From Paracoccus sp. R12_2 (lineage in GTDB: Bacteria; Pseudomonadota; Alphaproteobacteria; Rhodobacterales; Rhodobacteraceae): a stretch of DNA of 64,000 nucleotides. The notes under the pieces were generated by a model. The model ran no database searches. It worked only from the letters and a program-made list of their open reading frames with translations, and was not told where the DNA came from. The translations under genes were made by a program, and so were the position numbers. This document shows, in pieces, positions 2 through 60,497 of the stretch (its first letter is position 1; each line of letters opens with the position of its first letter). The DNA is taken from positions 1 to 64,000 of the forward strand of contig NZ_JAGHRA010000017.1 of NCBI RefSeq assembly GCF_017744015.1. Reading direction: 5' to 3'.

Positions 2-1183
2 GCGCGCACCGCTGCGGGGAAAGCCGAGACCGCTCTTGCCGGCGCGCGCGCCAAGCTGGACACAGTGATTGAGGCCCTGCCGAAAGGTCTGCGCACGCCC
101 GAGGCGGTTGTCGCTCGACGGGAGGCTTTGCAGAGAGAGCAAAGGCAACTCTCCGAGGCGCTGGAAGTGGCGACGCAACAGGACCGAGCCGCCAGTGAGG
201 TGCTCACCCGTTCGCAAGAGCAGCTAGAAGCAGCGAAGCGGGCGCGCGACGGGCAGCAGCAGCGCGTGAAGAAGGCACAAGGTGATTTTGTCGCTCGGCT
301 TACCGAGGTTGGGCTGGACAAAGCGGGATATGATGCTTGCAAGAGCCATTTCCCGACTCTAGACGCCGACCGCAAGAAGGTAACCGATCACCGCGATGGA
401 TTGATCGCTGCTCGCACGACATTGCATAACGCCATAGCCGCTTGCGCAGATCGTGAACGCCCGGATCTTGCCCCGCTTCAGCTGGCGTTGACAGACGCCA
501 CCCAGACCTTGAACGCGGCCAACGCTGCACTTGCCACAGCGAGAACGGATGTATCGTCACTGACCAAATTCAAGGAATCGCTTGCCGCGGCTCTGGCCGA
601 AACCGAGCGGCTAGAAGCCGAGACTGGTCCGCTCCGGGGGCTGGCCGATCTGGCTAACGGCAAGAACGATTTCAAGATGACACTCGAGACCTTCGCGATC
701 GGAGCAATGTTCGACCAGGTTCTTGAGGCGGCGAATATGAGGCTCGACCCTATGACACGTGGTCGCTACCGGCTAACGCGTGGGCTCGAGGCATCTGGCG
801 GTCGCGGCAAGCGTGGGCTCGAAATCGAGGCCTTCGACATCAACACCGGCAAGGCGCGCCCGACAGCCACGTTGTCAGGCGGCGAGACCTTTATCGCGGC
901 ACTGGCCCTCGCGCTTGGGCTCGCTGATGTGGTCGAGAGCCTTTCGGGCAGGATTCGGATGGACACAATATTCATCGACGAAGGCTTTGGGAGCCTCGAC
1001 ACCGAAAATGGGGCGGGCACACTGGATCAGGTGATCCAAGTTCTTGCCGCGCTGACAGAGGGCAGTCGTGCCGTGGGCCTGATATCCCATGTCGGGCTGG
1101 TGCAAGAGGCTATTCCACAAGGCTTCTACGTGCGTTCGACCCCAAGCGGCAGCCGGGTCGAGGAAAGGAGGGGGCTGGGATGA
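2..1183 (+). CDS. sbcC: SbcC/Rad50-like exonuclease ATPase, C-terminal part (5' end outside window)
   Basis: The reading frame is open from the first bases of the window, so the start lies upstream; the GTG at 65 is only an internal codon. The visible part has a long helical, Gln/Glu/Ala/Arg-rich coiled-coil stretch followed by an ABC ATPase C-lobe: the signature LSGGETF (about nt 868-888), Walker B with catalytic Glu in IDEGFGSLD, and a LISHV switch motif. This is the C-terminal half of SbcC, the ATPase subunit of the SbcCD nuclease that cuts hairpins and double-strand ends in the cytoplasm. The next gene overlaps it by 4 bp. Confidence is high for the SMC/SbcC family and lower for orthology, since plasmid and defence-associated SbcC-like proteins exist. 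Confidence 0.85.
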   Translation, partial: ARTAAGKAETALAGARAKLDTVIEALPKGLRTPEAVVARREALQREQRQLSEALEVATQQDRAASEVLTRSQEQLEAAKRARDGQQQRVKKAQGDFVARLTEVGLDKAGYDACKSHFPTLDADRKKVTDHRDGLIAARTTLHNAIAACADRERPDLAPLQLALTDATQTLNAANAALATARTDVSSLTKFKESLAAALAETERLEAETGPLRGLADLANGKNDFKMTLETFAIGAMFDQVLEAANMRLDPMTRGRYRLTRGLEASGGRGKRGLEIEAFDINTGKARPTATLSGGETFIAALALALGLADVVESLSGRIRMDTIFIDEGFGSLDTENGAGTLDQVIQVLAALTEGSRAVGLISHVGLVQEAIPQGFYVRSTPSGSRVEERRGLG

Positions 1184-1491
1184 CGGACCGTTGGTATTAC
1201 AGGAAGGCACACACCCGCCGTCTGTCGACAGGGCGCACGGTATCCGTTCGCGGAGGTTGGGCAGTTCGAGGCGATCGTGAAAGCAAGAAGGGCGCATCCT
1301 TCAGGCGGACTTGTCCAATATGCGGGGCGCTGATCGTAAGCGTGGGCATGCCCAGAGGAGGGTGGGTCCATTTTGAGGGCGGCAAAGGCCTGACACGTAT
1401 TAAACATCCGTGCCTGCATCTTGGTGAAGGCCTGAGCAGGCGGCGCGACGAAGACACGCCAGACCTTTTTGAGGCGAGGCTGCCATTTTAA
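1180..1491 (+). CDS. Small zinc-finger-like protein of unknown function
   Basis: 103 codons, starting at an ATG that overlaps the upstream SbcC-like stop (ATGA), so the two are probably co-translated. The protein is very basic (many Arg/Lys) and has one CPIC motif at about residues 45-48 and a later Cys near residue 78, which could form an incomplete metal site. I do not recognise the family. The overlap with the SbcC-like gene is the best argument that it is real; a role tied to DNA ends is only a guess from context. Confidence 0.55.
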   Translation: MTDRWYYRKAHTRRLSTGRTVSVRGGWAVRGDRESKKGASFRRTCPICGALIVSVGMPRGGWVHFEGGKGLTRIKHPCLHLGEGLSRRRDEDTPDLFEARLPF

Positions 1492-1577
1492 AATGTCACT
1501 GATGAAGCTTGAGAAAAGTTGGCTCAAATCCCACATCTAGTAACTAGAAGCAAACCAAACACCATATGGAGGATAGT

Positions 1578-1826
1578 ATGGCGGTAAATCGTAAAGGAAC
1601 TTCGACCAAGGTTGCCTCGCTTGCAGCAGACACCCTTTTCAAACCTGGCTCTTCACAGATCGCCCGCAAGCTTGCTGGTTCGGCGTTGTCTCAGTCAAAG
1701 ACCAATCGGCAAACCGGAGCGGAAATGGAGGACCTCGCGTCAAAGGTACTTCGCAGCGATCGCTATTCTGAAAAGACAAAGACACTTGCCGCTTCGGTGT
1801 TGTCCCAGTCGAACAAGAAGCGCTGA
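1578..1826 (+). CDS. Small protein with two tandem Ala/Ser/Leu repeats
   Basis: The chosen ATG at 1578 follows a GGAGGA Shine-Dalgarno at 1568-1573; an in-frame ATG at 1566 overlaps that site and is less likely. The 82-residue basic protein contains two copies of a roughly 25-residue unit, each ending in the same kind of motif: LAGSALSQS in the first and LAASVLSQS in the second. Proteins with such repeats are common as uncharacterised short ORFs in Proteobacteria; their function is unknown to me. It stands alone, with about 80 bp before it and 110 bp after it, just upstream of the TIR gene. Confidence 0.7.
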   Translation: MAVNRKGTSTKVASLAADTLFKPGSSQIARKLAGSALSQSKTNRQTGAEMEDLASKVLRSDRYSEKTKTLAASVLSQSNKKR

Positions 1827-1935
1827 CTGTAAACAGTATAACAGTGGTTTCGGGTTCAAGCGCTACAGGCCGTGTCTCACGTAGGTAGCGCTTTGGGTCA
1901 ATCATGAACAAACATTAAACATTTGAGTTGAGCAG

Positions 1936-2877
1936 ATGCGGGCATTTATTTCTTATTCTCATAGCGACAAGGCCGCGCTTGATCGGCTGCACGTCCACCT
2001 CAAGAACCTTACAAGGGAAGGGCGTATTGAGACCTGGTATGATCGCAACATCTTGGCTGGTTGCGAACTGGACGCTGAGATTGAACGGGAACTTGAGGCT
2101 TCCGACCTGTTCCTGCTCCTGGTGAGCCCCGACTTCATCGCATCCGACTACTGTGTCGAGCGCGAAATGAGACGCGCGCTTGAACGCCACGCCGCAGGGA
2201 CCGCCCGTGTAGTGCCGATCATCGTGGAGGAATGCGATTGGAAAGCGATGAGGGAGTTGCGCCAACTGAAGGCCGTGCCGACGGACGGCAAGGCGATCAG
2301 CGCCTGGGCCAATCCAAACACCGCTTACCTAAATGTCGTGCAGGAACTTCGACGCATCATCGAAGCTGAAGCCGTACCTACAGCTGCGGCGAAAGTAGCC
2401 GATGAGCCATCGGCCACACGCCCCTCGATGGCACGCTACCGCGCAAAGCGGCAGTTCGACCAAATCGACAAGGGTGATTTCCGCGATGCTGCCTTCGCCA
2501 CCTTCAAGGATTACTTCCGACGAGCGATCATCGAAATCGACTTAATCGATGGATTGCGCGGACGCTTCGTTGACAGAAGTGCGACCGCTTTTGGGGCAAC
2601 GGTTGTCAACAGCGGACATCGAAATGGTACGGCCCACATCTCGGTGCACTGCCGGAGCTCGCAGGTCGCCCTGGGCGATATTTACTACTCGTTCAGCGAA
2701 AACGCCGGTGACAACACAGCAAATGGCGGTTTCAACATTTCGGCCGATGATTACGAGCAATTCCTGATTCAAACCATGAACGTCTTCGGTAGAGCTGACG
2801 AACGGCTGACTCCAGAGCGAGCGGCTGAGGTGCTCTGGAATGAGTTCATTGGTAACGCAGGTATCAGCTATGACTGA
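1936..2877 (+). CDS. TIR-domain protein, candidate NAD-cleaving defence effector
   Basis: 313 residues. Residues 1 to about 145 form a TIR_2-type domain: it opens with MRAFISYSHSD, has LFLLLVSPDFIASDYC at 58-73, and the family's catalytic glutamate is E77 in CVEREMRRAL. Bacterial TIR domains of this kind cleave NAD+ or make cyclic ADP-ribose signals in anti-phage immunity. Residues about 165-313 form a second domain that I do not recognise (contains SGHRNGTAHISVH and DIYYSFSENAGDNT) and could be a sensor or oligomerisation module. The following zinc-ribbon gene overlaps its end by 8 bp. TIR assignment is firm; the defence role is inference from the family. Confidence 0.85.
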   Translation: MRAFISYSHSDKAALDRLHVHLKNLTREGRIETWYDRNILAGCELDAEIERELEASDLFLLLVSPDFIASDYCVEREMRRALERHAAGTARVVPIIVEECDWKAMRELRQLKAVPTDGKAISAWANPNTAYLNVVQELRRIIEAEAVPTAAAKVADEPSATRPSMARYRAKRQFDQIDKGDFRDAAFATFKDYFRRAIIEIDLIDGLRGRFVDRSATAFGATVVNSGHRNGTAHISVHCRSSQVALGDIYYSFSENAGDNTANGGFNISADDYEQFLIQTMNVFGRADERLTPERAAEVLWNEFIGNAGISYD

Positions 2878-3034
2878 GCGTGTTCATTTCCGCTGCAACA
2901 ATTGTGGGTACCGCTTCGAAGTCGAAGTGCTTGATGAGTACGAACGTCGCGAGGCCCGCCGTGAAAAGCGGCCGACTAGCGCGGTGCATTGTCCCGAATG
3001 TTATCGAACCGATATCCGGAGGGGTTGGGAATGA
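2870..3034 (+). CDS. Zinc-ribbon mini-protein translationally coupled to the TIR gene
   Basis: 54 residues, starting at the ATG at 2870 that lies inside the end of the TIR gene (8-bp overlap). A longer frame from 2840 exists, but its first ten codons lie wholly inside the TIR coding sequence. It has two CxxC knuckles (CNNCG near residue 8 and CPEC near residue 43) around a Glu/Arg-rich middle, which is a classical zinc ribbon. The overlap suggests that it is made together with the TIR protein. Its function is unknown; it may be a partner, regulator or nucleic-acid binder. Confidence 0.65.
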   Translation: MTERVHFRCNNCGYRFEVEVLDEYERREARREKRPTSAVHCPECYRTDIRRGWE

Positions 3035-3056
3035 AGGCTCGTGAGGGAGTCCACAC

Positions 3057-3578
3057 ATGCGAAGTACTTTGAACGCAAAATCAGCCGCTCTCGCCGAGGA
3101 GCCGAAGGGTACGCTGTTTCTCCTCAAGAGGTACGGCCATCAACCGATCTATGGCATTAAGCTTTCTGAACCATTGGATCAGCCCAACGACAAGCCGACG
3201 GTTCTGCTATTGAACCCTGACTTCGGGCGTGAAGGCGAAGCCACTTGGCATCGGATATTCCAATGGGAAGCGGACGAGTGGTGTATCTCCTTTGGAACCG
3301 ACTGGATAATACAGCCGGATTTCACGGCATCTTCGCTGTCTGAGATGAACGATCCGCAGCAAGAGGCATGCCTGACGATCGGGCCCCAGGGCATTCACTT
3401 CCGTGCGGCACCTGGCGAAGGATTCCGGGTCGCCTATCGCCACTTCATCCATGTTGACACCCTAGATCCGGTGAAGGATCTCGGAAATGCCGCCTTCCAC
3501 CTCAAAGGGTACCGAATCTTCTTGAACCGAGAGGATTGGGACAATGGGCGCCCCCCGATCTTTCAGCACGGCGTCTAG
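3057..3578 (+). CDS. Conserved-looking protein of unknown function
   Basis: 173 residues in the same direction and 22 bp after the zinc-ribbon gene, so possibly one transcript with the TIR gene. The sequence is well balanced, with a hydrophobic core pattern (TVLLLNPDFG, WCISFGTDW) and no signal peptide or membrane segment. I recognise no domain. Position and codon use support a real gene and possibly a third component of the TIR locus. Confidence 0.6.
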   Translation: MRSTLNAKSAALAEEPKGTLFLLKRYGHQPIYGIKLSEPLDQPNDKPTVLLLNPDFGREGEATWHRIFQWEADEWCISFGTDWIIQPDFTASSLSEMNDPQQEACLTIGPQGIHFRAAPGEGFRVAYRHFIHVDTLDPVKDLGNAAFHLKGYRIFLNREDWDNGRPPIFQHGV

Positions 3579-3717
3579 GCGACAGCCACTTCTCTTTCAA
3601 AGCCAGGAATAGATACTTGCTATGTCATAGGGTGATCGTTGCGCCATGTGTGAACGACCGTTTCACCGATATCACTGCACTCAAGACGTCGCTAATCTGC
3701 TATTAGTCCGTTAACCT

Positions 3718-4707
3718 TCAATGGCTTCGTCGACCCGGCAGATAGAACTCCGTAATCCCCCGTTTCCCCTCGGCCCGTCCCAGCTGCACGATCACATCGA
3801 TGGATTTCCGGATGTATTCCCGCACCTCGGCGAAGGTCAGCGGTGTGCCAGCCTGCAGAACCATGATCGCCAGCCGGTCGATGGCGAGTTCGGCGGTTTC
3901 GGCGTGGATGGTTGAGACCGATCCGCCATGGCCGGTGTTGATCGCTTCGAGATATGTCAGGGCCTCGGCCCCGCGCAATTCGCCGACGATGATCCTGTCG
4001 GGGCGCATGCGGAGGGAGGCCTGCAGGAGGGCGTTGGCGCTACGTTGTGAACCGGCACCGCGGTCGGCCAGAAGGGCGACGGTGTTGGGCTGCCCGGGAA
4101 AGAGCTCGAAGGCGTCCTCGATAGTGATCAGTCGCTCGTGCTCGCTCACATGCGTCAGGAGGTGGCGGGCGAAGGTGGTCTTGCCGGTAGAGGTGCCTCC
4201 GCTGATCAGGACATTGAGCCGTGCCTCGACCAGGGTTTGCAGCGCGGCCTCAAGGTTCTCCCCCGCCAGACTGGCAATGTTCTTCATCTTCTCGGCGCGG
4301 AGCGCGTCGAGCGAGACGGCCTTGCCGAAGAGATAGGCCGGGGCGTAGTCCCGGACGCTGCCCGAAGCGAAGAGACGGATGGTGATCGAGGCGCCGCGAT
4401 CGATGGCGGGCGGCACGGCGACCTGGACCCGGAGGGGGCGGCCCGCATATTCTACCTTGCCGGAAACGAGCGGGTTCTTTTCAGAGACGCGGGCCTTGGC
4501 GTCACCGACGATGGTTTGGGCCATGTTGAGCGCGGTGGTCCGGTCCACGGTCTGGCCTTCGTGGCGCATGGTGGCGTCCCCCGCCACCTCGAGCCAGACT
4601 TTGCCATCCGGGTTGATCGCGATCTCGACCACGTCGTCACGGCGCAGAAGGTCGCGGAACGGGTCAAGATACCGCTCGAGGTAGGAGGCTGGCGACGCCT
4701 GATCCAT
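3718..4707 (-). CDS. virB11: VirB11-type conjugation ATPase
   Basis: The chosen start, ATG at 4707, overlaps the virB10 stop (TGATG) and gives 329 residues; an open frame extends upstream to 5046 but runs inside virB10 in another frame. The protein carries Walker A GGTSTGKTTF, the Asp box ITIEDAFELF, Walker B in IIVGELRGAEALTYLEA and the His-box GHGGSVSTIHA typical of VirB11/TadA secretion ATPases. It forms a hexamer on the inner face of the membrane that powers pilus assembly and DNA transfer. It is the last gene of the operon that starts near 15004. Confidence 0.95.
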   Translation of the reverse strand: MDQASPASYLERYLDPFRDLLRRDDVVEIAINPDGKVWLEVAGDATMRHEGQTVDRTTALNMAQTIVGDAKARVSEKNPLVSGKVEYAGRPLRVQVAVPPAIDRGASITIRLFASGSVRDYAPAYLFGKAVSLDALRAEKMKNIASLAGENLEAALQTLVEARLNVLISGGTSTGKTTFARHLLTHVSEHERLITIEDAFELFPGQPNTVALLADRGAGSQRSANALLQASLRMRPDRIIVGELRGAEALTYLEAINTGHGGSVSTIHAETAELAIDRLAIMVLQAGTPLTFAEVREYIRKSIDVIVQLGRAEGKRGITEFYLPGRRSH

Positions 4708-48530: not shown

Positions 48531-49023
48531 CGCAAAGAATCGGCTGGGGCAACCCAGCCGATTCTCGTTGTCTCCTATGGCACTGACACGATTTATTATG
48601 TGTTGGAGTGGCATGGGCGATGTGTTTGACGGAACCAAGTGACCACGGTTCAGATGTAGAACTTTTCTGATGCAGCTCGCTGCGTGGCTGTCGTGTTTGC
48701 GGATCCGCTAGGCGTTTCGACGCTTCAAGCCATGTGCCGTTTGACAGCCGTGCAGTTACATAAATGTATTTTAAAACAGTAGGTTAAAGTATTTTTACCG
48801 CGCCGTTCGAGTTGAGTGCTGCGCAGAAGGCCGCACCGTTGGTTCCATATGTTGGGCCGCCTTTTTCGCCGCTCACTATAGCTTGTCGCCGCATCTAGAC
48901 TCGATCGTGCTGCGGGAGTGCATAAGCCACCGCGTGAAAATCGTTGTTAAGACTCATTTTTCCGTGTAGATGACACTTTAAAGGGATAAATTGCTGAAAA
49001 AGCGATATTTAGAGGGCAGGCGG
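48531..49023. promoter_or_regulatory. Upstream region of repABC
   Basis: 493 bp without a gene. It contains the first copy of the 16-bp repeat TTTGACAGCCGTGCAG (48740-48755) followed by an A+T-rich stretch (48757-48800), so the repA promoter and an operator or partition site are expected here. The TTGACA inside the repeat could itself be a -35 box. Confidence 0.5.
48740..48755 (+). repeat. 16-bp repeat TTTGACAGCCGTGCAG, copy 1 (upstream of repA)
   Basis: Identical 16-mer to the copies at 50243-50258 and 50268-50283. All copies have the same orientation and flank repA. Probable binding sites of RepA or RepB, for autoregulation or partition. Confidence 0.7.
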
Positions 49024-50235
49024 ATGCGAGATAGGTCATTTACGGCTGATACGAAGGATCAACCCTTCGACGAGATCATCCTTCAACAGGGAGAGCTGAT
49101 TTCTGACCGTCTCAATATGTTGCGGCAGGAACAGTATCCTCCAGATGCCCAGAAAGGTCTACGTCAGTTTTCGCTGGCGGAGGTCGCTTATTATCTCGGC
49201 GTGACCCAGTCGACAATCAAGAAGCTCCACCTAGAAGGTAAGGGGCCTGATCCCGAAACCTCGTCGTCGGGGAGGCGTAGTTATTCAGCTGAGCAAATGC
49301 TCGAACTGCGGGCGTATTTGGACAAGCATGGTCGGCCTGGAAAGCGGCGGTATGTGCCCCATCGGCGTGAAGGTGAGGAACTGCATGTAGTTTCTGTCGT
49401 CAACTTCAAAGGCGGGTCCGGAAAGACGACGACTGCGGCTCATCTGGCTCAGCACTTGGCGCTGAAAGGGCATCGTGTACTGGCGATCGATCTTGACCCG
49501 CAGGCATCACTGACAGCTCTGCATGGTATTCAGCCGGAGCTCGATAATGTTCCATCGCTCTACGAGACGCTCCGCTACGATGATCAACGCAAGCCAATTA
49601 TCGAAGTAATCCGACCAACGAACTTTCCTAACCTTGATATCGTGCCTGCAAGTTTGGAACTTCAAGAGTATGAGTACGATACCCCCGTTGCCTTGACGAG
49701 CAGCGACCCCCACGAGGGGCGCCTTTTCTTCACTCGGATCTCTAAGGCGCTCGACGAAGTCGATGATCGCTATGATGTCGTGGTGATCGATTGCCCACCG
49801 CAGCTTGGCTATCTCACGCTGACCGCACTGACAGCCTCGTCGTCAGTCATCGTCACCGTCCACCCACAGATGCTGGACGTTATGTCGATGAGTCAATTTC
49901 TGCTCATGCTTGGCGGAATCATGAAGACAATACGAGACGCTGGCGCGAACATGCGACTGAAATGGTTTCGCTATCTGGTTACCAGGTTTGAACCCACTGA
50001 TGGCCCTCAGAAGCAGATGGTCGGGTTTCTGCAGGCGATGTTCCCGAACCAGATGCTTACCGCGCCTGTTTTGAAATCCACGGCGATCTCCGACGCTGGG
50101 ATTACTAAACAGACACTCTACGAGGTCGAGCGCTCCCAGTTTGTTCGCACAACTTATGACCGGGCAATCACTTCACTGAACGACGTGAACGATGAGGTTT
50201 CGGAGCTGATCCACAAAGCATGGGGGCGCGAATGA
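49024..50235 (+). CDS. repA: RepA, ParA-type plasmid partition ATPase
   Basis: 403 residues from ATG 49024 (a TTG at 48991 is an alternative start). N-terminal MerR-like HTH (FSLAEVAYYLGVTQSTIKKL) then a ParA ATPase: deviant Walker A KGGSGKTTTAAHLA, ALIDLDPQAS-type A' box (LAIDLDPQAS) and VVIDCPPQLGYLTLTAL. RepA of repABC plasmids moves the partition complex and, with RepB, represses the operon. First gene of the replication module. Confidence 0.95.
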   Translation: MRDRSFTADTKDQPFDEIILQQGELISDRLNMLRQEQYPPDAQKGLRQFSLAEVAYYLGVTQSTIKKLHLEGKGPDPETSSSGRRSYSAEQMLELRAYLDKHGRPGKRRYVPHRREGEELHVVSVVNFKGGSGKTTTAAHLAQHLALKGHRVLAIDLDPQASLTALHGIQPELDNVPSLYETLRYDDQRKPIIEVIRPTNFPNLDIVPASLELQEYEYDTPVALTSSDPHEGRLFFTRISKALDEVDDRYDVVVIDCPPQLGYLTLTALTASSSVIVTVHPQMLDVMSMSQFLLMLGGIMKTIRDAGANMRLKWFRYLVTRFEPTDGPQKQMVGFLQAMFPNQMLTAPVLKSTAISDAGITKQTLYEVERSQFVRTTYDRAITSLNDVNDEVSELIHKAWGRE

Positions 50236-50242
50236 CGACGTC

Positions 50243-50283
50243 TTTGACAGCCGTGCAGATTGATAGTTTTGACAGCCGTGCAG
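50243..50283 (+). repeat. 16-bp repeat copies 2 and 3 (between repA and repB)
   Basis: TTTGACAGCCGTGCAG occurs at 50243-50258 and again at 50268-50283, starting 25 bp apart, in the 103-bp gap between repA and repB. The regular spacing and the third copy upstream of repA suggest protein-binding sites, such as a partition site (parS) for RepB. Confidence 0.75.
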
Positions 50284-50338
50284 ACAGCCATTTGTCCAGA
50301 GTGTTCACGTCTATGATCGCCCAGAAGGAGACAGTTTG

Positions 50339-51334
50339 ATGGCTCGTAAAGACCTCCTGAAAAATGTGATGGCCAGTTCTTCCGAGCAGCCGAAGGACTC
50401 TGGCCGATCAGGCTATGCGATGCGTGGCGCATCAAAGTCCATGAAGGTCTCGATTGACAATCTTGCCGAAAATTCGAAGCGCTTGCTCGAAGGGGAAACC
50501 ATCGTCGAAATCGATCCCCAATTGATCGATGTGTCCTTCATTTCGGATCGTCTCAGCGACGACGACGAGGCCTTCAACGAGCTGAAGGAGTCGATTGCAA
50601 CTGGTCGCCAGGACACTCCAGTACTGCTTCGCCCGCACCCGGATCTGGACGGTCGCTATATGATCGTCTTCGGCCATCGGCGTGTGCGCGTGGCGTCAGC
50701 CCTTGGCCGGAAGGTTCGCGCTGTAGTCAAACCAATGGACGATGTGGCGCACATTCTCGCCCAAGGGCAAGAGAACACGGCGCGCGCGGATCTTTCATTC
50801 ATCGAGAAGGCGCTTTTCGCAAAAAGCCTCCTTGATATGGGGCAGGCGAAGGATGTGATCCAGTCGGCGCTGACCATTGATGGAACGCTGTTGTCGCGCA
50901 TGTTGTCTGTCGCGCAGAACATCCCGAGGCATGTGATTGAGCGGATCGGTCCCGCTAAGCAGATTGGCCGTGACCGCTGGGAGGATTTCAAGAAGCTGGC
51001 TTCGGAGTCTGCGAACCAAAAGGTCCTTGAAGGTGCCTTGGAACTCGAAGGGTTTCACGAGCTGGATAGCGATGCAAGGTTCGAGCTCCTGCACAGCAGA
51101 CTGGCAGAGGCGGGCAGGACACCCAAGCGCAGAAAGACGCGCATGGCACCCAAGAAGCGCACCTGGACCGCCGGCAAAGGCCGCATCAAAGGGGTAATCG
51201 GCCGGTCCGGAAGGGCATTCAGTATTTCGCTGACAGCACAGGATTCAACCGAGTTCGGAGACTTTCTCTCCGGTCGACTGGATCAGCTCTACAGCGAATT
51301 CCTCGCAACAAAAGAGGAGCAGTCGGAACAATGA
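50339..51334 (+). CDS. repB: RepB, ParB-type plasmid partition protein
   Basis: 331 residues from ATG 50339 behind AGAAGGAGAC. ParB/RepB core: LIDVSFISDRLSDD, TPVLLRPHPDLDGRYMIVFGHRRVRVA (in outline), NTARADLSFIEKALFA and an HTH region after it. RepB binds the centromere-like site and works with RepA. The 104 bp before it hold two repeat copies. It is followed by the ctRNA region and repC. Confidence 0.95.
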   Translation: MARKDLLKNVMASSSEQPKDSGRSGYAMRGASKSMKVSIDNLAENSKRLLEGETIVEIDPQLIDVSFISDRLSDDDEAFNELKESIATGRQDTPVLLRPHPDLDGRYMIVFGHRRVRVASALGRKVRAVVKPMDDVAHILAQGQENTARADLSFIEKALFAKSLLDMGQAKDVIQSALTIDGTLLSRMLSVAQNIPRHVIERIGPAKQIGRDRWEDFKKLASESANQKVLEGALELEGFHELDSDARFELLHSRLAEAGRTPKRRKTRMAPKKRTWTAGKGRIKGVIGRSGRAFSISLTAQDSTEFGDFLSGRLDQLYSEFLATKEEQSEQ

Positions 51335-51341
51335 TCTAGGC

Positions 51342-51395
51342 AAAAGAAAAGCCCCCAAGCAGCGTGGCCTGAGAGCTAATCTGAAAAGTTTGGTC
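51342..51395 (-). ncRNA. Predicted counter-transcribed RNA (ctRNA) controlling repC
   Basis: On the minus strand in the repB-repC gap: -35 TTGACA (complement of 51425-51430), 17-bp spacer, -10 TATCTT (complement of 51402-51407), then about 54 nt ending in a hairpin. The stem pairs AGCTCTCAGGC (complement of 51367-51377) with GCTTGGGGGCT (complement of 51350-51360) around a 6-base loop, with three G-U pairs, followed by a T-rich tract. This is the usual place and shape of the repABC antisense RNA that limits RepC and causes incompatibility. Confidence 0.8.
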
Positions 51396-51494
51396 GCTTA
51401 GAAGATACCTCTCCCACGAATCACTGTCAACGATGAACGCTTTTGAGCGAACGGCTTTCTTTTGCCTCCACATAACCGGAGGTGAGATACAGGC

Positions 51495-52775
51495 ATGAAA
51501 CATACAGGTTGGCGCAAGCCGACACCGGGTCTTGGGGTTGCTGAGCAACTTGCCCAAGCCGGTGAACGGGTAGCAGTACCCAAAACACGAGCATTTGTCG
51601 CGCTCAAGCGCGTTGGTGCACATATCGGCCTGAAGGCTGGCGACATGATGCTCCTCGACACGCTCGGGGCCTTCACCCAGGCCCAGGACTGGGAGGAGGG
51701 GCAGCGCCCGATCGTCTGGGCGTCGAACGCCTATCTGATGGAGCGGACGGGCTTTTCGCTCTCCGCGCTCAAGCGCCATGCGCGGCGCCTGGCCGAGATC
51801 GGCGTGATTTCCTTTCAGGACAGCCCGAATGGCAAGCGGTGGGGCCGTAGGGACGCCGATGGGCGCATCGTTGAGGCGTATGGCTTCGATCTGTCGCCGC
51901 TTTCAGCCCGTGTCGAGGAGTTCGAGGAGCTTCATGCCGAGCTGCAGGCCGAGCGCGAGCTCTGCCAGCGCCTGAAGCGTCAGATTACGGTGGCACGCCG
52001 GATGATCCGCGCTCGGATTGAGGCGGCTATCAGCAGCGCGCTGCGCGGGCCCTGGAGCCAATTCACTGGACTCTTTGAGGAACTTCTGGACCGGCTTCCG
52101 CGTCGTCATGAAGCCTCTGAGCAGTTGGAACGGCTACTGTTGTGGTTCAAGGAACTTCAGGAACGGGTCGAAGCGGCCTATCTCAAGGCGACTGGTGCGA
52201 CAAAACCTGTGGAAAACATCGGTAACAAAGACACCCAAATCACAAAAAAGACTCAAGAAATGGACCCCAGGGAGGTCATTTCTGAACCTCATATACTAAT
52301 TACAAATCAACTTAATCCTGTAACTAGTAATTCCTCTAAAAAAGAGGAAGCGGCGGGCGTGGTACCCAATGCTCCACCCGAAGAGTGGGTTGATAGGGAG
52401 CTGGAAGACTGGGTTGCCGAGGTGCGCAAGAAGCGGACGGCGCTCGATCTGCCGACAATCATGCAGGCCTGTCCGGAATTCGCGTCCTGGGCGCGCAATA
52501 TGGGTGGATTCCTGAAGGATTGGGGCGACCTGCACCGCGTTGCCGGGCAACTCAGGCCGATGATCGGTATCTCAGAGCATGCCTGGAACGTAGCGCAGGA
52601 TCGAATGGGGACCCAAGTGGCCACGGCCGCATTTGCGCTCGTCTTCGAGAAGCACAGTGTCGGTGAGGTTGCCTCGCCGGGCGGATATCTTCGGGGCATG
52701 GTCGAGAAGGCTGGGGCAGGAGAGCTGCATTTGGAGCGTAGTTTCTATGGCAGGCTCAGCGGGCAGGCGGCGTGA
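51495..52775 (+). CDS. repC: RepC replication initiator
   Basis: 426 residues from ATG 51495 behind a strong GGAGGTGA site. The sequence matches RepC: KHTGWRKPTPGL at the start, ALKRVGAHIGLKAGDMMLLDTLGAF, RTGFSLSALKRHARRL and, near the end, FEKHSVGEVASPGGYLRGM (all in short outline). RepC is the essential initiator, and the replication origin is normally inside its gene; in this case the A+T-rich stretch near 52290-52350 is a candidate. The long leader overlaps the ctRNA, as expected. Confidence 0.93.
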   Translation: MKHTGWRKPTPGLGVAEQLAQAGERVAVPKTRAFVALKRVGAHIGLKAGDMMLLDTLGAFTQAQDWEEGQRPIVWASNAYLMERTGFSLSALKRHARRLAEIGVISFQDSPNGKRWGRRDADGRIVEAYGFDLSPLSARVEEFEELHAELQAERELCQRLKRQITVARRMIRARIEAAISSALRGPWSQFTGLFEELLDRLPRRHEASEQLERLLLWFKELQERVEAAYLKATGATKPVENIGNKDTQITKKTQEMDPREVISEPHILITNQLNPVTSNSSKKEEAAGVVPNAPPEEWVDRELEDWVAEVRKKRTALDLPTIMQACPEFASWARNMGGFLKDWGDLHRVAGQLRPMIGISEHAWNVAQDRMGTQVATAAFALVFEKHSVGEVASPGGYLRGMVEKAGAGELHLERSFYGRLSGQAA

Positions 52776-52830: not shown

Positions 52831-53088
52831 ATGGTGACACGCAACGTTGTCCTGACCGAACCTCAGGATCAACTGGTTCAAGCCTTGGTGGCATCCGGGC
52901 GCTACCAGAACGTGAGTGAAGCAATGCGCGCTGGCCTGAGATTGCTGGAGCAGGAAGAAGCACAACTAGCCGGGATCCGGAAAGGTCTAATTGAAGGTCT
53001 GGCGCAGGCCAAGGCGGGCGATCTTGCGGAGGGAAGCGGCAAAGATGCGATCCGTAGGGCCTTTGCGACTGCGCGCGCGCGTTCATGA
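52831..53088 (+). CDS. ParD-like antitoxin
   Basis: 85 residues: a ribbon-helix-helix start (NVVLTEPQDQLVQALVASGRYQNVSEAMRAGLRLLE in outline) followed by a helical, charged tail that wraps the toxin. It overlaps the ParE-like gene by 4 bp. The pair would kill plasmid-free cells. Confidence 0.88.
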   Translation: MVTRNVVLTEPQDQLVQALVASGRYQNVSEAMRAGLRLLEQEEAQLAGIRKGLIEGLAQAKAGDLAEGSGKDAIRRAFATARARS

Positions 53089-53420
53089 GCCGATCCTTCC
53101 GGCTGACTCGTCGTGCGGAAGCTAGCCTCACTGAAATCGGCAGATGGACGATCGAGAATTTCGGGCTGCGCCAAGCGGAGCTTTACGAGGCCGAATTGCT
53201 CAACTGCTGTGAAAGAATTCTGAACGGCCAGGCCCATAGCCGGAGTTGCGCAGTTCTCGTTGATGATGTCGAAGACCTGCGGTTCATAAGGGCAGGGGAA
53301 CATTTCCTTGTGTTTCTGGATCGATCGGACGAGGTCATCATCGTGGATATCCTCCATTCCCGCAGCGATCTCCCTCGCCATGTTGCCTCACTTTCGGCTT
53401 TGAAGTCCGAAGACTCCTGA
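53085..53420 (+). CDS. ParE-like toxin
   Basis: 111 residues of the RelE/ParE fold: FRLTRRAEASLTEIGRWTIENFG, a middle CCERILNGQ helix and the C-terminal strand FLVFLDRSDEVIIVDILHSRSDLPRH. ParE toxins inhibit DNA gyrase. Second gene of the addiction pair just downstream of repABC. Confidence 0.87.
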   Translation: MSRSFRLTRRAEASLTEIGRWTIENFGLRQAELYEAELLNCCERILNGQAHSRSCAVLVDDVEDLRFIRAGEHFLVFLDRSDEVIIVDILHSRSDLPRHVASLSALKSEDS

Positions 53421-53426
53421 TCCACA

Positions 53427-54542
53427 TCACAACCCGGCTGCCTTCGTCAGGTTCACCCGGAACCTGTCTCGGCGACGCTGATAGCGGCGAGTCATCTCGG
53501 CCGAAGCGTGCCCCAGCTGCTTCTGGACATAGCGCTCGTCGACTTCGGCGGAGCTGGCGAGACCGGCGCGTAGGCTGTGGCCAGAGAACATAGCGAGGCG
53601 GTCTTTCTCAGGCAGGTCCGACCGGATGCCCGCGTCCAGGACCGTGCGCTTGATCAGCCGCGCAACGTGTTTGTCGTTGAGCCGCTTGTCAGAGGCGCGT
53701 TTGCCATCCCGCGAGGTGCCGACAAAGACAGGGCCGAAGTCGATCCTGGCGAAGTGCAGCCATTGCTCGAGTGCATGGACAGGGCAGGTCTGGTCCTTGG
53801 AGCCGCGGCCGATCTCAACCTCGCGCCAGCCGGTCTTTGCGTTCAGGGTCAGTACGACGCCCTTGTCGAAGATCTCGATCCAGCCGCCCGAGTCCGGCGT
53901 GTCGTCCTTGTGAACGTCGAGGCTGACAATTTCCGACCGACGCAGACCGCCCGCGTAGCCAATCAGCAGGATCGCCCGATCCCGCAAGCCGCGCAGGTCG
54001 TAGGGCAGGGCGGCGATCATCGCCAGAATATCCTCGGCCAGAATCGCTTCCTTCTGCACCGGCGGGCGCGCGTGCTTGCGTTTGATCCCAGCCAACACCG
54101 TCGCGATGTGGCGGTTCTTACGATCGAGGGTGAATCCGCGTTGCGCATAGTTCCAGGCGAGGCCGGAGAGGCGGCGATCGATCGTGCTGACCGACAGGGG
54201 GCGGGACGCCCACTGCGAAGGGGAGGGGCCTGACCCGGAGGCGAGATCGGCGAGGTAAAGGCCGATCATCTCGGATGAGGGGGGCAGGGGCTCCACTCCC
54301 TTCATCCGGCACCAGCGCGCAAAATGCGCCCAATCCTTGGCATAGGCCTTCAGCGTGTTGTCGGACGCTGCAGCGCGGGCATAGTCGCGGGCGGTGTCGA
54401 CCAGGCGATCAAGGCTGCCGGAGCCCGCGACATGGGAGGGCAGGGCGATCCCATCGCTTTTTTCTTGATTTCTCGCGTCGCCCTGAGCATTATGACTTGC
54501 ATCAGAGTTTGATGATGTCGATTTCTCGTCCTCTGCGGCCAT
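53427..54542 (-). CDS. Tyrosine recombinase (Cre/Xer-like), candidate multimer resolvase
   Basis: 371 residues. N-terminal SAM-like core-binding domain (NTLKAYAKDWAHFARWCRMK) and C-terminal catalytic domain with Arg in GGLRRSEIVSL, HxxR in GHSLRAGLASSA and the nucleophile Tyr in MTRRYQRRRD. All key residues of an active enzyme are present. A 13-7-13 inverted repeat lies 50 bp upstream of its start. In a repABC plasmid maintenance region the likely job is resolving plasmid multimers, although integration of a mobile element is an alternative. Confidence 0.9.
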   Translation of the reverse strand: MAAEDEKSTSSNSDASHNAQGDARNQEKSDGIALPSHVAGSGSLDRLVDTARDYARAAASDNTLKAYAKDWAHFARWCRMKGVEPLPPSSEMIGLYLADLASGSGPSPSQWASRPLSVSTIDRRLSGLAWNYAQRGFTLDRKNRHIATVLAGIKRKHARPPVQKEAILAEDILAMIAALPYDLRGLRDRAILLIGYAGGLRRSEIVSLDVHKDDTPDSGGWIEIFDKGVVLTLNAKTGWREVEIGRGSKDQTCPVHALEQWLHFARIDFGPVFVGTSRDGKRASDKRLNDKHVARLIKRTVLDAGIRSDLPEKDRLAMFSGHSLRAGLASSAEVDERYVQKQLGHASAEMTRRYQRRRDRFRVNLTKAAGL

Positions 54543-54591
54543 TTTCCAGTGAATCCAGCGATGAAATTAAACTGATTTTCAGCGTATCTTT

Positions 54592-54624
54592 TTATGTCCG
54601 ATAATACAAACTTATTGGACATAA
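54592..54624. repeat. lox/dif-like 13-7-13 inverted repeat, candidate recombination site
   Basis: Left arm TTATGTCCGATAA (54592-54604), centre TACAAAC (54605-54611), right arm TTATTGGACATAA (54612-54624). The arms are inverted copies with a single mismatch. This is the geometry of a core site for a tyrosine recombinase (loxP has 13-8-13). The recombinase gene starts 50 bp away, as in many recombinase-site modules. It could instead be a repressor site. Confidence 0.7.
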
Positions 54625-54698
54625 CGAGGAACTGCAAAGCGAGGCGGTTTGCACATCATATTGTGGACGAAAGCGCCGCGCTGATGTAGGCTTCAGGC

Positions 54699-55583
54699 AT
54701 GACTTTTTCCCGACCAGATCACACCAGCGACCTCGACACGTTACCCCGGATGCCTGCCTGGGTCACCTCTGCACGCGCTGAAACCCTTGAAGATGTTGCG
54801 TTTTTGTCGGGCGCGGCGCTGAACCACCTGCATCTTGTGTTGGGACGCGTGGAGGTGCCCCAAGCCTTGTTGTCGGACCGGCTCGCGCTGCGCGCGGCCG
54901 AAGCGTGTGTCGCGTTTTCCGGCCGACCGGAGCGGGCAGGGGAGCTGCGCGACGTCGTGCACCTTCTGCGCCCCGGCGATCTGCCCGGACCGGCGGGGGA
55001 AACCTACCTGGCTTGGCGCCGCGCGGCGGAACGGCCGGTGTCAGTCAAGGCTCTGCATCGCGCGCTGCGCGGACAGGAGGTTGCACAGATAGCAGGCTGG
55101 CTCGACGCGGGGCAGGGGGCGCCAGTCACCCGTGCGGCAATGGTGCTGGAGGCGGTGCTGACGGAGGGGCCCCGTGCCGATGTGTCGGCGCTGATCCTCG
55201 CGGATGCGGCGCTCGCGCAGGCGCTTGGTTGGGGGCATCTTGTGCCGCTGCTGGCTGCGGGCCTGAAGCGCGCTGACCTGCGCAAGCATGGCGACGACCT
55301 TCGCTTGGCTTGTCATCGGGCACTCATCTTTTCGGCGATCGAGTCGGTGCGGCAGGCCGCCGACCTCACGCGCCGAGCTGCGCATCTGAAAGCCGTCGCG
55401 CTGAAGCTGCGGGCCAAGGGGGCAGGGGGCGCGGTTGACATGTTCCTGACCCGCGATGCGGTGGCGCCTTCGGCCTTGCCCTTGCCGGATCGCGCCGCGC
55501 GGCGGCTCTGCGACCGGTTGGTCGACCTCGGCGCGGTGCGCGAGCTGACCGGGCGCGATACCTTCCGGCTCTATGGGGTGTAG
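54699..55583 (+). CDS. DUF1403 family protein
   Basis: 294 residues, almost all helical and Ala/Leu/Arg-rich (LALRAAEACVAFSGRPERAGELRD, RAAMVLEAVL). It matches what I know as DUF1403, an alphaproteobacterial plasmid family of unknown role. The C-terminal DRLVDLGAVRELTGRDTFRLYG ends in a small HTH-like wing. The next gene, an ScpB homologue, starts 2 bp after its stop, so the two very likely act together. Confidence 0.8.
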   Translation: MTFSRPDHTSDLDTLPRMPAWVTSARAETLEDVAFLSGAALNHLHLVLGRVEVPQALLSDRLALRAAEACVAFSGRPERAGELRDVVHLLRPGDLPGPAGETYLAWRRAAERPVSVKALHRALRGQEVAQIAGWLDAGQGAPVTRAAMVLEAVLTEGPRADVSALILADAALAQALGWGHLVPLLAAGLKRADLRKHGDDLRLACHRALIFSAIESVRQAADLTRRAAHLKAVALKLRAKGAGGAVDMFLTRDAVAPSALPLPDRAARRLCDRLVDLGAVRELTGRDTFRLYGV

Positions 55584-55585
55584 CT

Positions 55586-56200
55586 ATGGCGAAGGATCGC
55601 TCGGAACCTGACCTGGACCTCGAATTGGCCGACCTGCCGCCGGAGCTGCGCTGGCGGGAGTGGATGCGCCGGATCGAGGCGGTGCTCTTTGCCTCTGCCT
55701 CGCCGGTGCCGCGCGAGGATCTGGCGCGGGTCGTGGGGCAGGGGGCCTCGGTTGACCTGCTCGTCGAGGACCTCGCCGCCGAGCTGGAGGGGCGGGCTTT
55801 TGAAGTTGCGTGGGTCGCTGGCGGCTGGATATTCCGCACGCGCGCCACCTACGCCCCCGCGATCCGCGCGGCGGCAGATATCGGGGACCAATTGCTGGAC
55901 CTGAGCGAATTCGACGTCGCGGTCCTGGCCGCCATCGCTTACCACCAGCCGATCACCCGCGACGCACTGAAGGATATCTTCGGCAAGGAGATCAGCCGTG
56001 ACCTGATCGGACGGCTGCATGCGCGCGACCTGATCGGGACTGGGCCGCGGTCGCCGCGACGCGGCGCTCCCTATACCTTCGTCACCACGGAGCAGTTCCT
56101 GGTTGCCTTCGGATTGGAGTCCCTGCGCGATCTTCCCGATCGGGAGCAGCTGGAGGATGCGGGGGTTGTGGCGGAAGCTTCACAAGTCGATTTCGGGTAA
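55586..56200 (+). CDS. Plasmid-borne ScpB homologue
   Basis: 204 residues with the tandem winged-helix pattern of ScpB, the SMC-kleisin partner: IEAVLFASASPVPREDLARVVG, WIFRTRATYAPAIRAA and VLAAIAYHQPITRDALKDIFGKEIS-like second wing (in outline) ending with the RGAPYTFVTTEQFLVAFGL strand. There is no ScpA gene or SMC gene nearby; the DUF1403 protein is the obvious partner. A plasmid-specific condensin-like factor is inference. Confidence 0.85.
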   Translation: MAKDRSEPDLDLELADLPPELRWREWMRRIEAVLFASASPVPREDLARVVGQGASVDLLVEDLAAELEGRAFEVAWVAGGWIFRTRATYAPAIRAAADIGDQLLDLSEFDVAVLAAIAYHQPITRDALKDIFGKEISRDLIGRLHARDLIGTGPRSPRRGAPYTFVTTEQFLVAFGLESLRDLPDREQLEDAGVVAEASQVDFG

Positions 56201-58724: not shown

Positions 58725-58793
58725 GGCAATGTTTTATGGGCTTTCTTGCTGTTTTGGGATTCCCCCTGATGTCCGATTTTGCTATGGAATGGC

Positions 58794-60497
58794 ATGCGTA
58801 AGACCCCTCCAAATCTGGCTGATCTGCCACCTGACGTGCAGGCCTTTGTAGCCGCACAAGCGGCGGAACTGGCCCGTAAGGATGCGGAGTTGTTGGGCCA
58901 ATCGTTGAGCCATGCCTCCGCCCAAAAACGCCTCAAGGATGAGATGGAAGCCGCCCTTGCTGCCGAGCGCACCGCCCATGCGCGGGCCATCCAGAGCCGA
59001 GATACCCTCATTGCTGATCTGCGCTTGCAATTGCATGGTCACAAAAAGCACCGCTTTGGGTCAAAGTCGGAAAGCAGCGCGCAACTGGCGCTGGAACTGA
59101 TCCTCGAAGAGTTGGAGATCGAGCAAGCCGCAGAGACTGAAGGTGATGGTGAGGGCCAGACGTCTTCCGAGGCAGACGTCCCAAAGCCGCCGCGCACCCC
59201 GCGCAAACGCAAGCCTTTCCCAAAGGGGCTTAAGCGGGTCAAGAAGACCATCACCCCCGGTGAGACCTGTGAAGACTGTGGTGGCCGCTTCAGGGAGCTG
59301 GGAACAGATGTTCTGGAAGAGTTGGAATATGTTCCAGGCCATTACATCGTCAATCAGATCAACCGCCCGCGTTTGGCCTGTAGCTGCTGTGACAAGGTGG
59401 TTCAGGCGGAGATGCCAAGCCGCCCCATCCCCAAGAGCTTTGTGGGTCCCGCGCTGATGGCGCATATCCTGTGCTGCAAATACGGCTATCACCTGCCGCT
59501 CTATCGCCAAAGCCAGATGTTTGAGAACGAAGGCATCGACCTGAGCGGATCGCTCATGGCCCTCTGGGTGGGCAAATGCACCAAGCTGCTTGAACGCGTG
59601 GCAGATGCCATCCGTGACCATGTGTTTGAGGCACAAGCCATCTTCATGGATGATACCACGGTCAAGCTGCTCCAGAAGGGCAAAGGGCGTGGCAAAAACA
59701 AGAGCAAAACCGCACGGCTATGGGTCTATGCCCGAGATGAGAGCGCCTGGTCCGGGGCCGCGCCACCCGCCGTGTGGTATCAGTTCTCCACCAACCGAGG
59801 TGCGGAACACCCGAGCGAACATCTCAAATCCTACACGGGCTACGCCCATGCGGACGCCTATGCAGGCTATAACGATGCCTACCGCACGGGGCGCATCAAG
59901 GAGATGGCCTGTATGGCCCATGTGCGACGGGAGTTTTATGCCCTGTATGAAAGCCTGAAGCTGCCTGTGGCGGGCGAAGCGGTCTTGCGCATTCGAAAGC
60001 TCTATGACGTTGAAACACAGGCACGGTTCCTACCACCCCATGAGCGCGTGGCCCTGCGTCAGGAACTCGCCAAGCCCATCTTTGATGATCTGGAGATCTG
60101 GCTCAAGGAGCAGTTGGGTAAAATCTCCGGCAAGACGCCACTGGCTAAGGCCATCCGATATGCCCTCGCGCGCCTGCCAAAGGCACGGCCTTATCTCGAC
60201 AACGGCTTCTTGGAAATCGACAATAACACAGCCGAGCGGGCAGTGCGTCCTGTGGCCGTTGGAAGAAAGAACTACCTCTTCATGGGGTCAGAGGCAGGCG
60301 GCAAATCCGCAGCAATCGCCTATACTCTCATCGAGACCGCAAAGATGAACAACGTCAATCCCGAAGCCTGGCTCGCTTGGGTGCTCGAACGCATCCAGGA
60401 TCATCCCGTCAATCGCATCCCCCTGTTGCTACCTTGGGCATCTCAGGGCATGATCAACGCGCAGAATGCTGAGGTCGGGGATCAACACGCCGCCTGA
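58794..60497 (+). CDS. tnpC: IS66 TnpC transposase
   Basis: 567 residues from ATG 58794 (58779 is an alternative). N-terminal coiled coil, leucine-rich [22 protein letters not shown], then zinc-binding CEDCGGRF and CSCCDK, and a DDE domain: [10 protein letters not shown] (first Asp), [13 protein letters not shown] (second) and [19 protein letters not shown] with the Glu. All catalytic residues are present and the frame is open, so the transposase may be active. Confidence 0.95.

Follow-up and report, generated by a model that had tools for sequence, protein, structure and literature searches.

The window (the whole stretch of 64,000 nucleotides of Paracoccus sp. R12_2 that was analysed) carries, as the initial annotation had stated, a repABC plasmid replicon, and beside it a gene for a tyrosine recombinase. 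A DUF1403–ScpB operon is divergent from the recombinase gene, and a candidate recombination site (the core) and a second inverted repeat lie between the two. The second repeat and the operon had been overlooked as parts of the module. The features, in window coordinates, are:

48991-52775, plus strand: repA, repB and repC, the replicon accompanying the module
53427-54542, minus strand: tyrosine recombinase, 371 aa (PF00589, E 3.5e-16)
54581-54586, minus strand: proposed recombinase -10 box, TACGCT (commonest form TATGCT)
54592-54604 and 54612-54624: arms of the inverted repeat, complementary at 12/13 positions (92%), spacer 7 bp
54592-54624: 33-bp form of the core, including the outer bases
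54594-54622, minus strand (that of the recombinase): 29-bp core, 11-7-11, a candidate recombination site from conservation and natural junctions
54604-54609, minus strand: proposed recombinase -35 box, TTGTAT, within the core (from the sequence and the profile described below)
54643-54650, no strand: second inverted repeat, core-side arm GGCGGTTT, gapless in the 84-locus profile described below
54670-54677, no strand: second inverted repeat, DUF1403-side arm AAAGCGCC, from the 84-locus profile
54687-54692, plus strand: proposed -10 box, TAGGCT, of the DUF1403 gene, which may be leaderless
54699-55583, plus strand: DUF1403 protein, 294 aa, with a predicted Fic-like fold (PF07183, E 8.7e-98)
55586-56200, plus strand: ScpB paralogue, 204 aa, adjoining DUF1403 (PF04079, E 3.3e-34)

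ParD/ParE toxin–antitoxin genes lie between repC and the recombinase gene (52831-53420; the PF05016 match is at 53085-53420, and the ParD/ParE antitoxin was placed through the annotation of an identical plasmid), and an IS66 family transposase is encoded near the module (58779-60497).

The recombinase scores 59.9 bits against PF00589 (Phage_integrase; cut-off 27.1). R201, K236, H322, R325, H345 and Y354, which we take to be the catalytic set (R-K-H-R-H-Y) of tyrosine recombinases, are invariant in 21 aligned homologues, in agreement with the earlier statement that the protein has all catalytic residues. It misses the XerC and XerD family cut-offs (TIGR02224, 50.5 versus 335.15; TIGR02225, 47.8 versus 329.6), and the chromosomal Xer-like proteins of the same genome are 26–28% identical to it where BLAST aligned them. 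A PDB sequence search at E <= 0.01 gave two matches in all, both Xer-type, and no Cre.

The site had been described as two 13-bp arms with one mismatch around a 7-bp centre, about 50 bp from the start of the recombinase. Both descriptions are correct: the arms are complementary at 12 of 13 positions around a spacer of 7 bp, and the near edge of the repeat and the start codon of the recombinase (ATG, 54542) are 49 bp apart. With up to one mismatch allowed, the window contains one 13-7-13 repeat, versus a mean of 0.075 in 40 dinucleotide shuffles, and three repeats over spacers of 4–10, versus 0.525 in the shuffles. The inverted repeat by itself is moderately unlikely by chance; conservation is the deciding evidence.

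We took homologues of the recombinase from a species-level genome collection and used the best 80 of 579 that were confirmed. The core, searched for with the degenerate pattern ATGTCCRATAANNTTGYMTTATCGGACAT at up to 3 mismatches, adjoins the recombinase gene in 72 of these 80 loci, so the same site is indeed present beside homologous recombinases, while the best match in shuffled loci (n=40) had 11 mismatches to a 31-bp version of the core. Four of the 8 loci lacking a core (L004, L008, L047 and L080) have at most 109 bp of contig before the gene; the others (L070, L071, L078 and L079) have the recombinase and an upstream flank, yet no core under the pattern. A RepA, RepB or RepC match was present in the fetched stretch of 69 of the 72 core-bearing loci (best 80 of 579), which fits the multimer-resolution layout suggested earlier.

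The best-conserved core in a profile of 84 non-redundant loci, preselected for the 76-bp spacing described below, reads ATGTCCRATAA-NNTTGYM-TTATCGGACAT, i.e. 11-7-11. With 0 set at window position 54622 and numbers increasing toward the recombinase, its most conserved parts are ATGTCCRATAA (0–10), TTG (13–15) and TTATCGGAC (18–26), and its most variable position is 17 (60 A, 21 C, 2 G, 1 T; n=84). One locus with an adjoining recombinase (L182, 4007-4030) has a core centre of 8 bp instead of 7, owing to one extra base.

The core and DUF1403 occur together. Among 248 genomes of the family, 41 hold 53 copies of the core (the reversed-pattern control gave 0) and 52 have a DUF1403 match (48 above the cut-off); a DUF1403 match lies within 400 bp of 47 of the 53 core copies. 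Outside the family DUF1403 is rare, with matches in 4 of 385 genomes of the class (3 above the cut-off), a draw that includes the window's own genome among the matches. The 32 loci centred on DUF1403, which reach about 1.5 kb out and exclude two weak partial DUF1403 matches (L093 and L094), all have ScpB; the core is present in 28 and absent in 4, and a recombinase match is found in 25. In PLSDB the 33-base query matched 411 plasmids at 426 places, with at least 80% of the query covered in 330 records; most of the records have a single core per plasmid. The gene order around the core is identical in pTiChry5, pRi1724 and one Methylobacterium plasmid, and the module recombinases of Rhizobiales are 60–63% identical to that of the window. 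Plasmid pDSHI03 of Dinoroseobacter shibae has the module as well.

The window's genome has a second copy of the module on contig C14 (G000:C14:21234-23378; L084, L095), with a recombinase 79% identical to the first and the core centre TCTTGCG, versus GTTTGTA in the window. This pair would fit a barrier between co-resident plasmids made of unlike centres; such a barrier is not a general rule, because other genomes hold the same centre on different contigs. The core pattern was also seen on three IMG/VR viral contigs (L161, L162 and L163). A phage origin of the module was rejected, as 50,697 phage records gave 2 partial matches, both in a single ssRNA phage. The weak core match in Gluconobacter pGOX1 (L089) is probably due to chance, because no recombinase, DUF1403 or ScpB is annotated nearby and the degenerate pattern gave no match.

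We measured spacing in 113 distinct loci, 22 of which were unmeasured for the distance to DUF1403 and 22 for that to the recombinase. The core lies 76 bp from the DUF1403 start in 89 and 77 bp in 2 of the 91 measurable loci; its distance to the recombinase ranges from 12 bp to 3,833 bp among the measured loci. Inside the 76-bp gap is the second inverted repeat, GGCGCTTT-N19-AAACCGCC, gapless in the 84 non-redundant loci. In pTiChry5, the DUF1403 of which is ~38% identical, GCGGTTT-N19-AAACCGC (read by eye) stands in its place. The centres of the core and of the second repeat are 52 bp (about five helical turns) apart, also in pTiChry5.

The core may also be part of a promoter. The core's TTGYMT, followed 17 bp on by TATGCT, plausibly forms the recombinase promoter, and for DUF1403 a TAGNNT hexamer directly ahead of the start codon points to a leaderless one; a promoter scan picked up neither the recombinase nor the DUF1403 promoter. 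Since the core centre resembles the -35 box of the recombinase, autoregulation of the recombinase through the core is likely.

To see if recombination takes place at the core in nature, we looked for mosaic pairs, i.e. loci identical on one side and ~80% or less identical on the other. From 116 distinct loci, a k-mer prefilter left 47 pairs, which yielded 33 junction rows in 30 pairs. We refined 28 junctions, omitting L035/L060 and L035/L065 (also off the core) as repeats of the L033/L035 junction. The likely range of the junction overlaps the core in 22 of the 28. Two of these 22 are soft (L176/L100 and L177/L100, which show three mismatches on the left side of the core; in addition, L177 has an insertion). 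Five lie off the core: L033/L035 at -150; L176, L177 and L100, each against L018, at -46; and L061/L100, placed at about -595 in the screen and with an uninformative refit. The L176/L177 junction is a transposon insertion and was set aside. The pairs share parents, so that by a by-hand estimate they represent roughly ten independent events. In a looser earlier screen just 14 of the 92 junctions mapped to the core; for 29 bp out of some 2 kb even this is more than expected, and many of the remaining junctions are weak.

The window itself takes part in two such mosaics. Compared with L003, all recombinase-side 250-bp bins are 1.0 (to two decimals) over 5.5 kb, and none of the listed mismatches falls between core position 16 and 150, while the DUF1403 side is ~80% identical and farther out unrelated. 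Compared with the closed circular NZ_CP136691.1, the 500-bp bins are 0.99–1.0 for 9 kb, position 176 being the one mismatch in the range 60 to 4000; on the DUF1403 side identity is 80–88%, and farther out the sequences are unrelated. Because this plasmid is closed and circular, a draft-assembly error is not the cause of the junction.

The clearest case is that of three closed plasmids of Pseudosulfitobacter pseudonitzschiae (L181, 290,592 bp; L183, 157,664 bp; L185, 87,106 bp). L183 and L185 have left bins of 1.0 for 3.75 kb, up to core position 26; L183 and L181 have right bins of 1.0 for 4 kb and differ at no listed position from 7 to 60; L181 and L185 are ~47–84% alike in full bins. L183 thus joins the halves of L185 and L181 within core positions 7–26. 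In right-identical pairs the crossover lies beyond position 16 or 17, and in the left-identical pair L033/L065 before 17. L060 and L065 are identical (1.0) over 5.5 kb on both sides, position 17 being the sole mismatch listed from -90 to 150. Position 17 therefore travels with the left half in some junctions and with the right half in others, a pattern that would be expected of strand exchange across an overlap at positions 11–17. We regard recombination at the core in nature as highly likely, and the neighbouring recombinase would very probably be the enzyme that carries it out.

Transposons point to the same stretch. An insert of ~3.8 kb splits the core from the recombinase in six loci (the draft loci L021, L030, L068 and L081, and the closed plasmids L177 and L179). 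For L177 and L179 the tni genes are known from the annotation; TniA matches in the four draft loci are 43–91% identical to the TniA of L177, so the inserts are different elements. We rejected a Tn3-like identity for the four, as TniA is present and a Tn3 probe found no match; the insert of L090 is Tn3-family by annotation. Read by eye, the TGTCG end follows the core at 27 bp in L021 and L179, 28 bp in L030, 43 bp in L177, 52 bp in L081 and 53 bp in L068. Both TGTCG...CGACA ends are present in five of the six inserts, the matching CGACA end being unseen in L068, and a 5-bp direct repeat (GATTC, counted by eye) was recognised in L081 only. In three more loci (L010, L061 and L011) TniA lies 2.4–4.5 kb off on the other side. 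Passages of PMC7765201 describe Tn5053/Tn402 transposons as inserting preferentially at res sites, aided by the resolvase of the site. By analogy, insertions of these 'res-site hunters' near the core would favour recombination over a plain operator, although the Tni target here would be the site of a tyrosine recombinase.

The Tni inserts of L021, L030 and L179 carry TTATGTCCGATAAT, which resembles one core arm, at most 140 bp from the recombinase-facing end, and the same arm-like stretch, TTATGTCCGATAAT, is found in the insert of L177 near 5685. It may represent a half-site picked up by the transposons, of potential use in the resolution of cointegrates.

Several plasmids have two cores. NZ_CP086905.1 (197,667 bp) is a fusion of two plasmid types (87 kb and 110 kb) and retains two identical direct cores 87.1 kb apart; NZ_CP087085.1 (197,672 bp) corresponds to 87,104 + 110,568 of other strains' plasmids and has two cores with unlike centres (loci L190-L196 represent these two cointegrates). 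We rejected NZ_CP086905.1 as a product of the core: it switches at -409 to -107 and at about +45, off the core. Both cores of NZ_CP087085.1 keep their parental flanks in the stretches compared, and this cointegrate, too, was probably fused elsewhere. Since NZ_CP086905.1 keeps two identical direct cores, dimer resolution at the core, if it occurs, is not always complete; the persistence of NZ_CP087085.1 is less telling because its cores have unlike centres. The Yoonia plasmid NZ_CP151764.1 has cores at 152887 and 210622 in opposite orientation, where inversion would be possible.

We propose that the locus is a plasmid-encoded, single-recombinase module for site-specific recombination, and we think it likely that it serves multimer resolution. 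In the 29-bp core, both 11-bp arms would be binding sites of the recombinase, and two cores would recombine by exchange of strands across the asymmetric 7-bp centre; this reaction of the neighbouring recombinase would produce the natural crossovers. Resolving multimers of large plasmids would probably be its main purpose. Where different plasmids have a common core, the same reaction could join them, which would explain the mosaics. When bound at the core, the recombinase would probably repress its own gene, the -35 box of which seems to lie within the core. DUF1403 and ScpB may be regulators or accessory proteins acting at the second repeat, the least certain step of the mechanism.

Two observations speak against the resolution role: NZ_CP086905.1 retains its two identical direct cores, and a core common to different plasmids favours fusions, which is a cost. 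Against the proposed module as a whole count the junctions off the core, the small share of on-core junctions in the looser screen, and the loci that have a recombinase or DUF1403 but no core. It is conceivable, at perhaps one chance in several, that the same recombination is kept for exchange between plasmids (fusion, swapping of replicon or cargo) and not for multimer resolution. Several genomes do have the same centre on different contigs, and the mosaics combine one replicon half with different cargo halves. However, the constant association with genes of replication and partition and the mostly single core look like housekeeping, and mosaics would arise as by-products of multimer resolution too.

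It is highly improbable that the junctions result from ordinary homologous recombination and fall on the core since the stretch is conserved. Such exchanges are found nearby (at -46, -150 and about -595), as is the switch of NZ_CP086905.1 between -409 and -107. With ~80% identity over 2 kb, however, the flanking genes provide plenty of short identical stretches, and still 22 of the 28 junctions map to the 29 bp of the core.

The least probable reading of all is that the core is an operator or promoter only, bound by a repressor (perhaps the recombinase or DUF1403), with no recombination: the promoter-like TTGYMT in its centre with TATGCT 17 bp on and the fixed distance to DUF1403 are as expected of it, but as the sole role it is contradicted by the junctions in the core, among them the closed three-plasmid recombinant L181/L183/L185, and by intact cores that transposons have cut off from the recombinase. 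The initial annotation had set a recombination site against a repressor operator. The recombination site stands, on the mosaic junctions in the core centre and the adjoining Tni insertions; the strict alternative does not, as an operator role is probably also partly true.

ScpB scores above the cut-off for PF04079 (118.2 versus 27.4) and below that for TIGR00281 (77.3 versus 89.2). An AlphaFold2 model of DUF1403 (46 sequences) is helical, with a pLDDT of 83.2 and a pTM of 0.82. Foldseek ranks Fic proteins first for the model, with a best E of 0.14, which is weak, and in VIA ranks 1–24 are Fic chains (Z 15.1 to 3.8; next row 3.4). The Fic motif is H-x-F-x-x-G-N-G, and it was found in 0 of 61 DUF1403 proteins. 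Judged by eye, the C-terminus of the model resembles a winged helix, and DUF1403 is plausibly a DNA-binding pseudo-Fic protein. The operon with ScpB prompted us to consider DUF1403 as an ScpA-like kleisin; we consider this rather unlikely, as the model resembles Fic proteins. The Foldseek and VIA match lists of the model contain no kleisin. An accessory role of DUF1403 and ScpB is possible, at somewhat less than even chances. A more specific and rather doubtful version, by analogy, is that a dedicated plasmid-encoded ScpB and a catalytically dead, Fic-like, DNA-binding DUF1403 assemble at the phased second repeat, gate strand exchange and so tie crossover to SMC/condensin segregation, much as FtsK gates Xer.

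If the proposed module is real, it is common to large alphaproteobacterial plasmids, from roseobacters to Agrobacterium Ti/Ri; it may keep plasmids monomeric while letting them swap halves at a fixed point, and would help explain the mosaicism of roseobacter plasmids. It would also give DUF1403 its first proposed role, raise the question of why plasmids encode their own ScpB, and provide a new recombinase–site pair for genetic tools.

The plasmid recombination system is probably so far undescribed. In open-licence PMC full texts, a set that mostly leaves subscription journals outside, no paper has the word DUF1403, and among the papers listed no title or opening of an abstract describes the site. 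PMC13386836 counts recombinases on Sulfitobacter plasmids and nowhere uses the word ScpB, and PMC7901474 treats the chromosomal dif of Dinoroseobacter. The closest likeness in this literature concerns rhizobial plasmids: an XerD-like gene follows their repABC genes, and passages of PMC10194956 suggest multimer resolution for it. There, too, a tyrosine recombinase gene lies beside repABC; the site, DUF1403 and ScpB are absent from those passages.

As to the well-studied systems, the arms of the window site presumably differ from both dif and loxP, and the module as a whole shares features with several of them. Xer/dif and cer/psi use a tyrosine recombinase and a core of ~28–30 bp with 11-bp arms, a short centre and the inner ends ATAA...TTAT, and in cer/psi an accessory sequence flanks the core on one side. 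The module resembles them in its tyrosine recombinase, its 11-bp arms, its inner ends and its one-sided accessory sequence. It differs from Xer/dif in that one plasmid-encoded recombinase lies beside the site, in contrast to the chromosomal XerC and XerD, in its module neighbours (DUF1403 and ScpB) and in the TIGR02224 score (50.5 versus 335.15). With Cre/loxP it shares a single recombinase, near-symmetric arms, an asymmetric centre and the plasmid setting, but it has in addition a conserved accessory repeat and operon and a core at the proposed recombinase promoter, and its two PDB sequence matches at E <= 0.01 are Xer-type. The TnpI/IRS system of the Tn4430 type likewise has a core and accessory sequences adjoining the recombinase gene, and in it the recombinase is also the protein that binds the accessory repeats. 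The second repeat of the module, in contrast, is unlike the core arms, and this points to a binding protein other than the recombinase.
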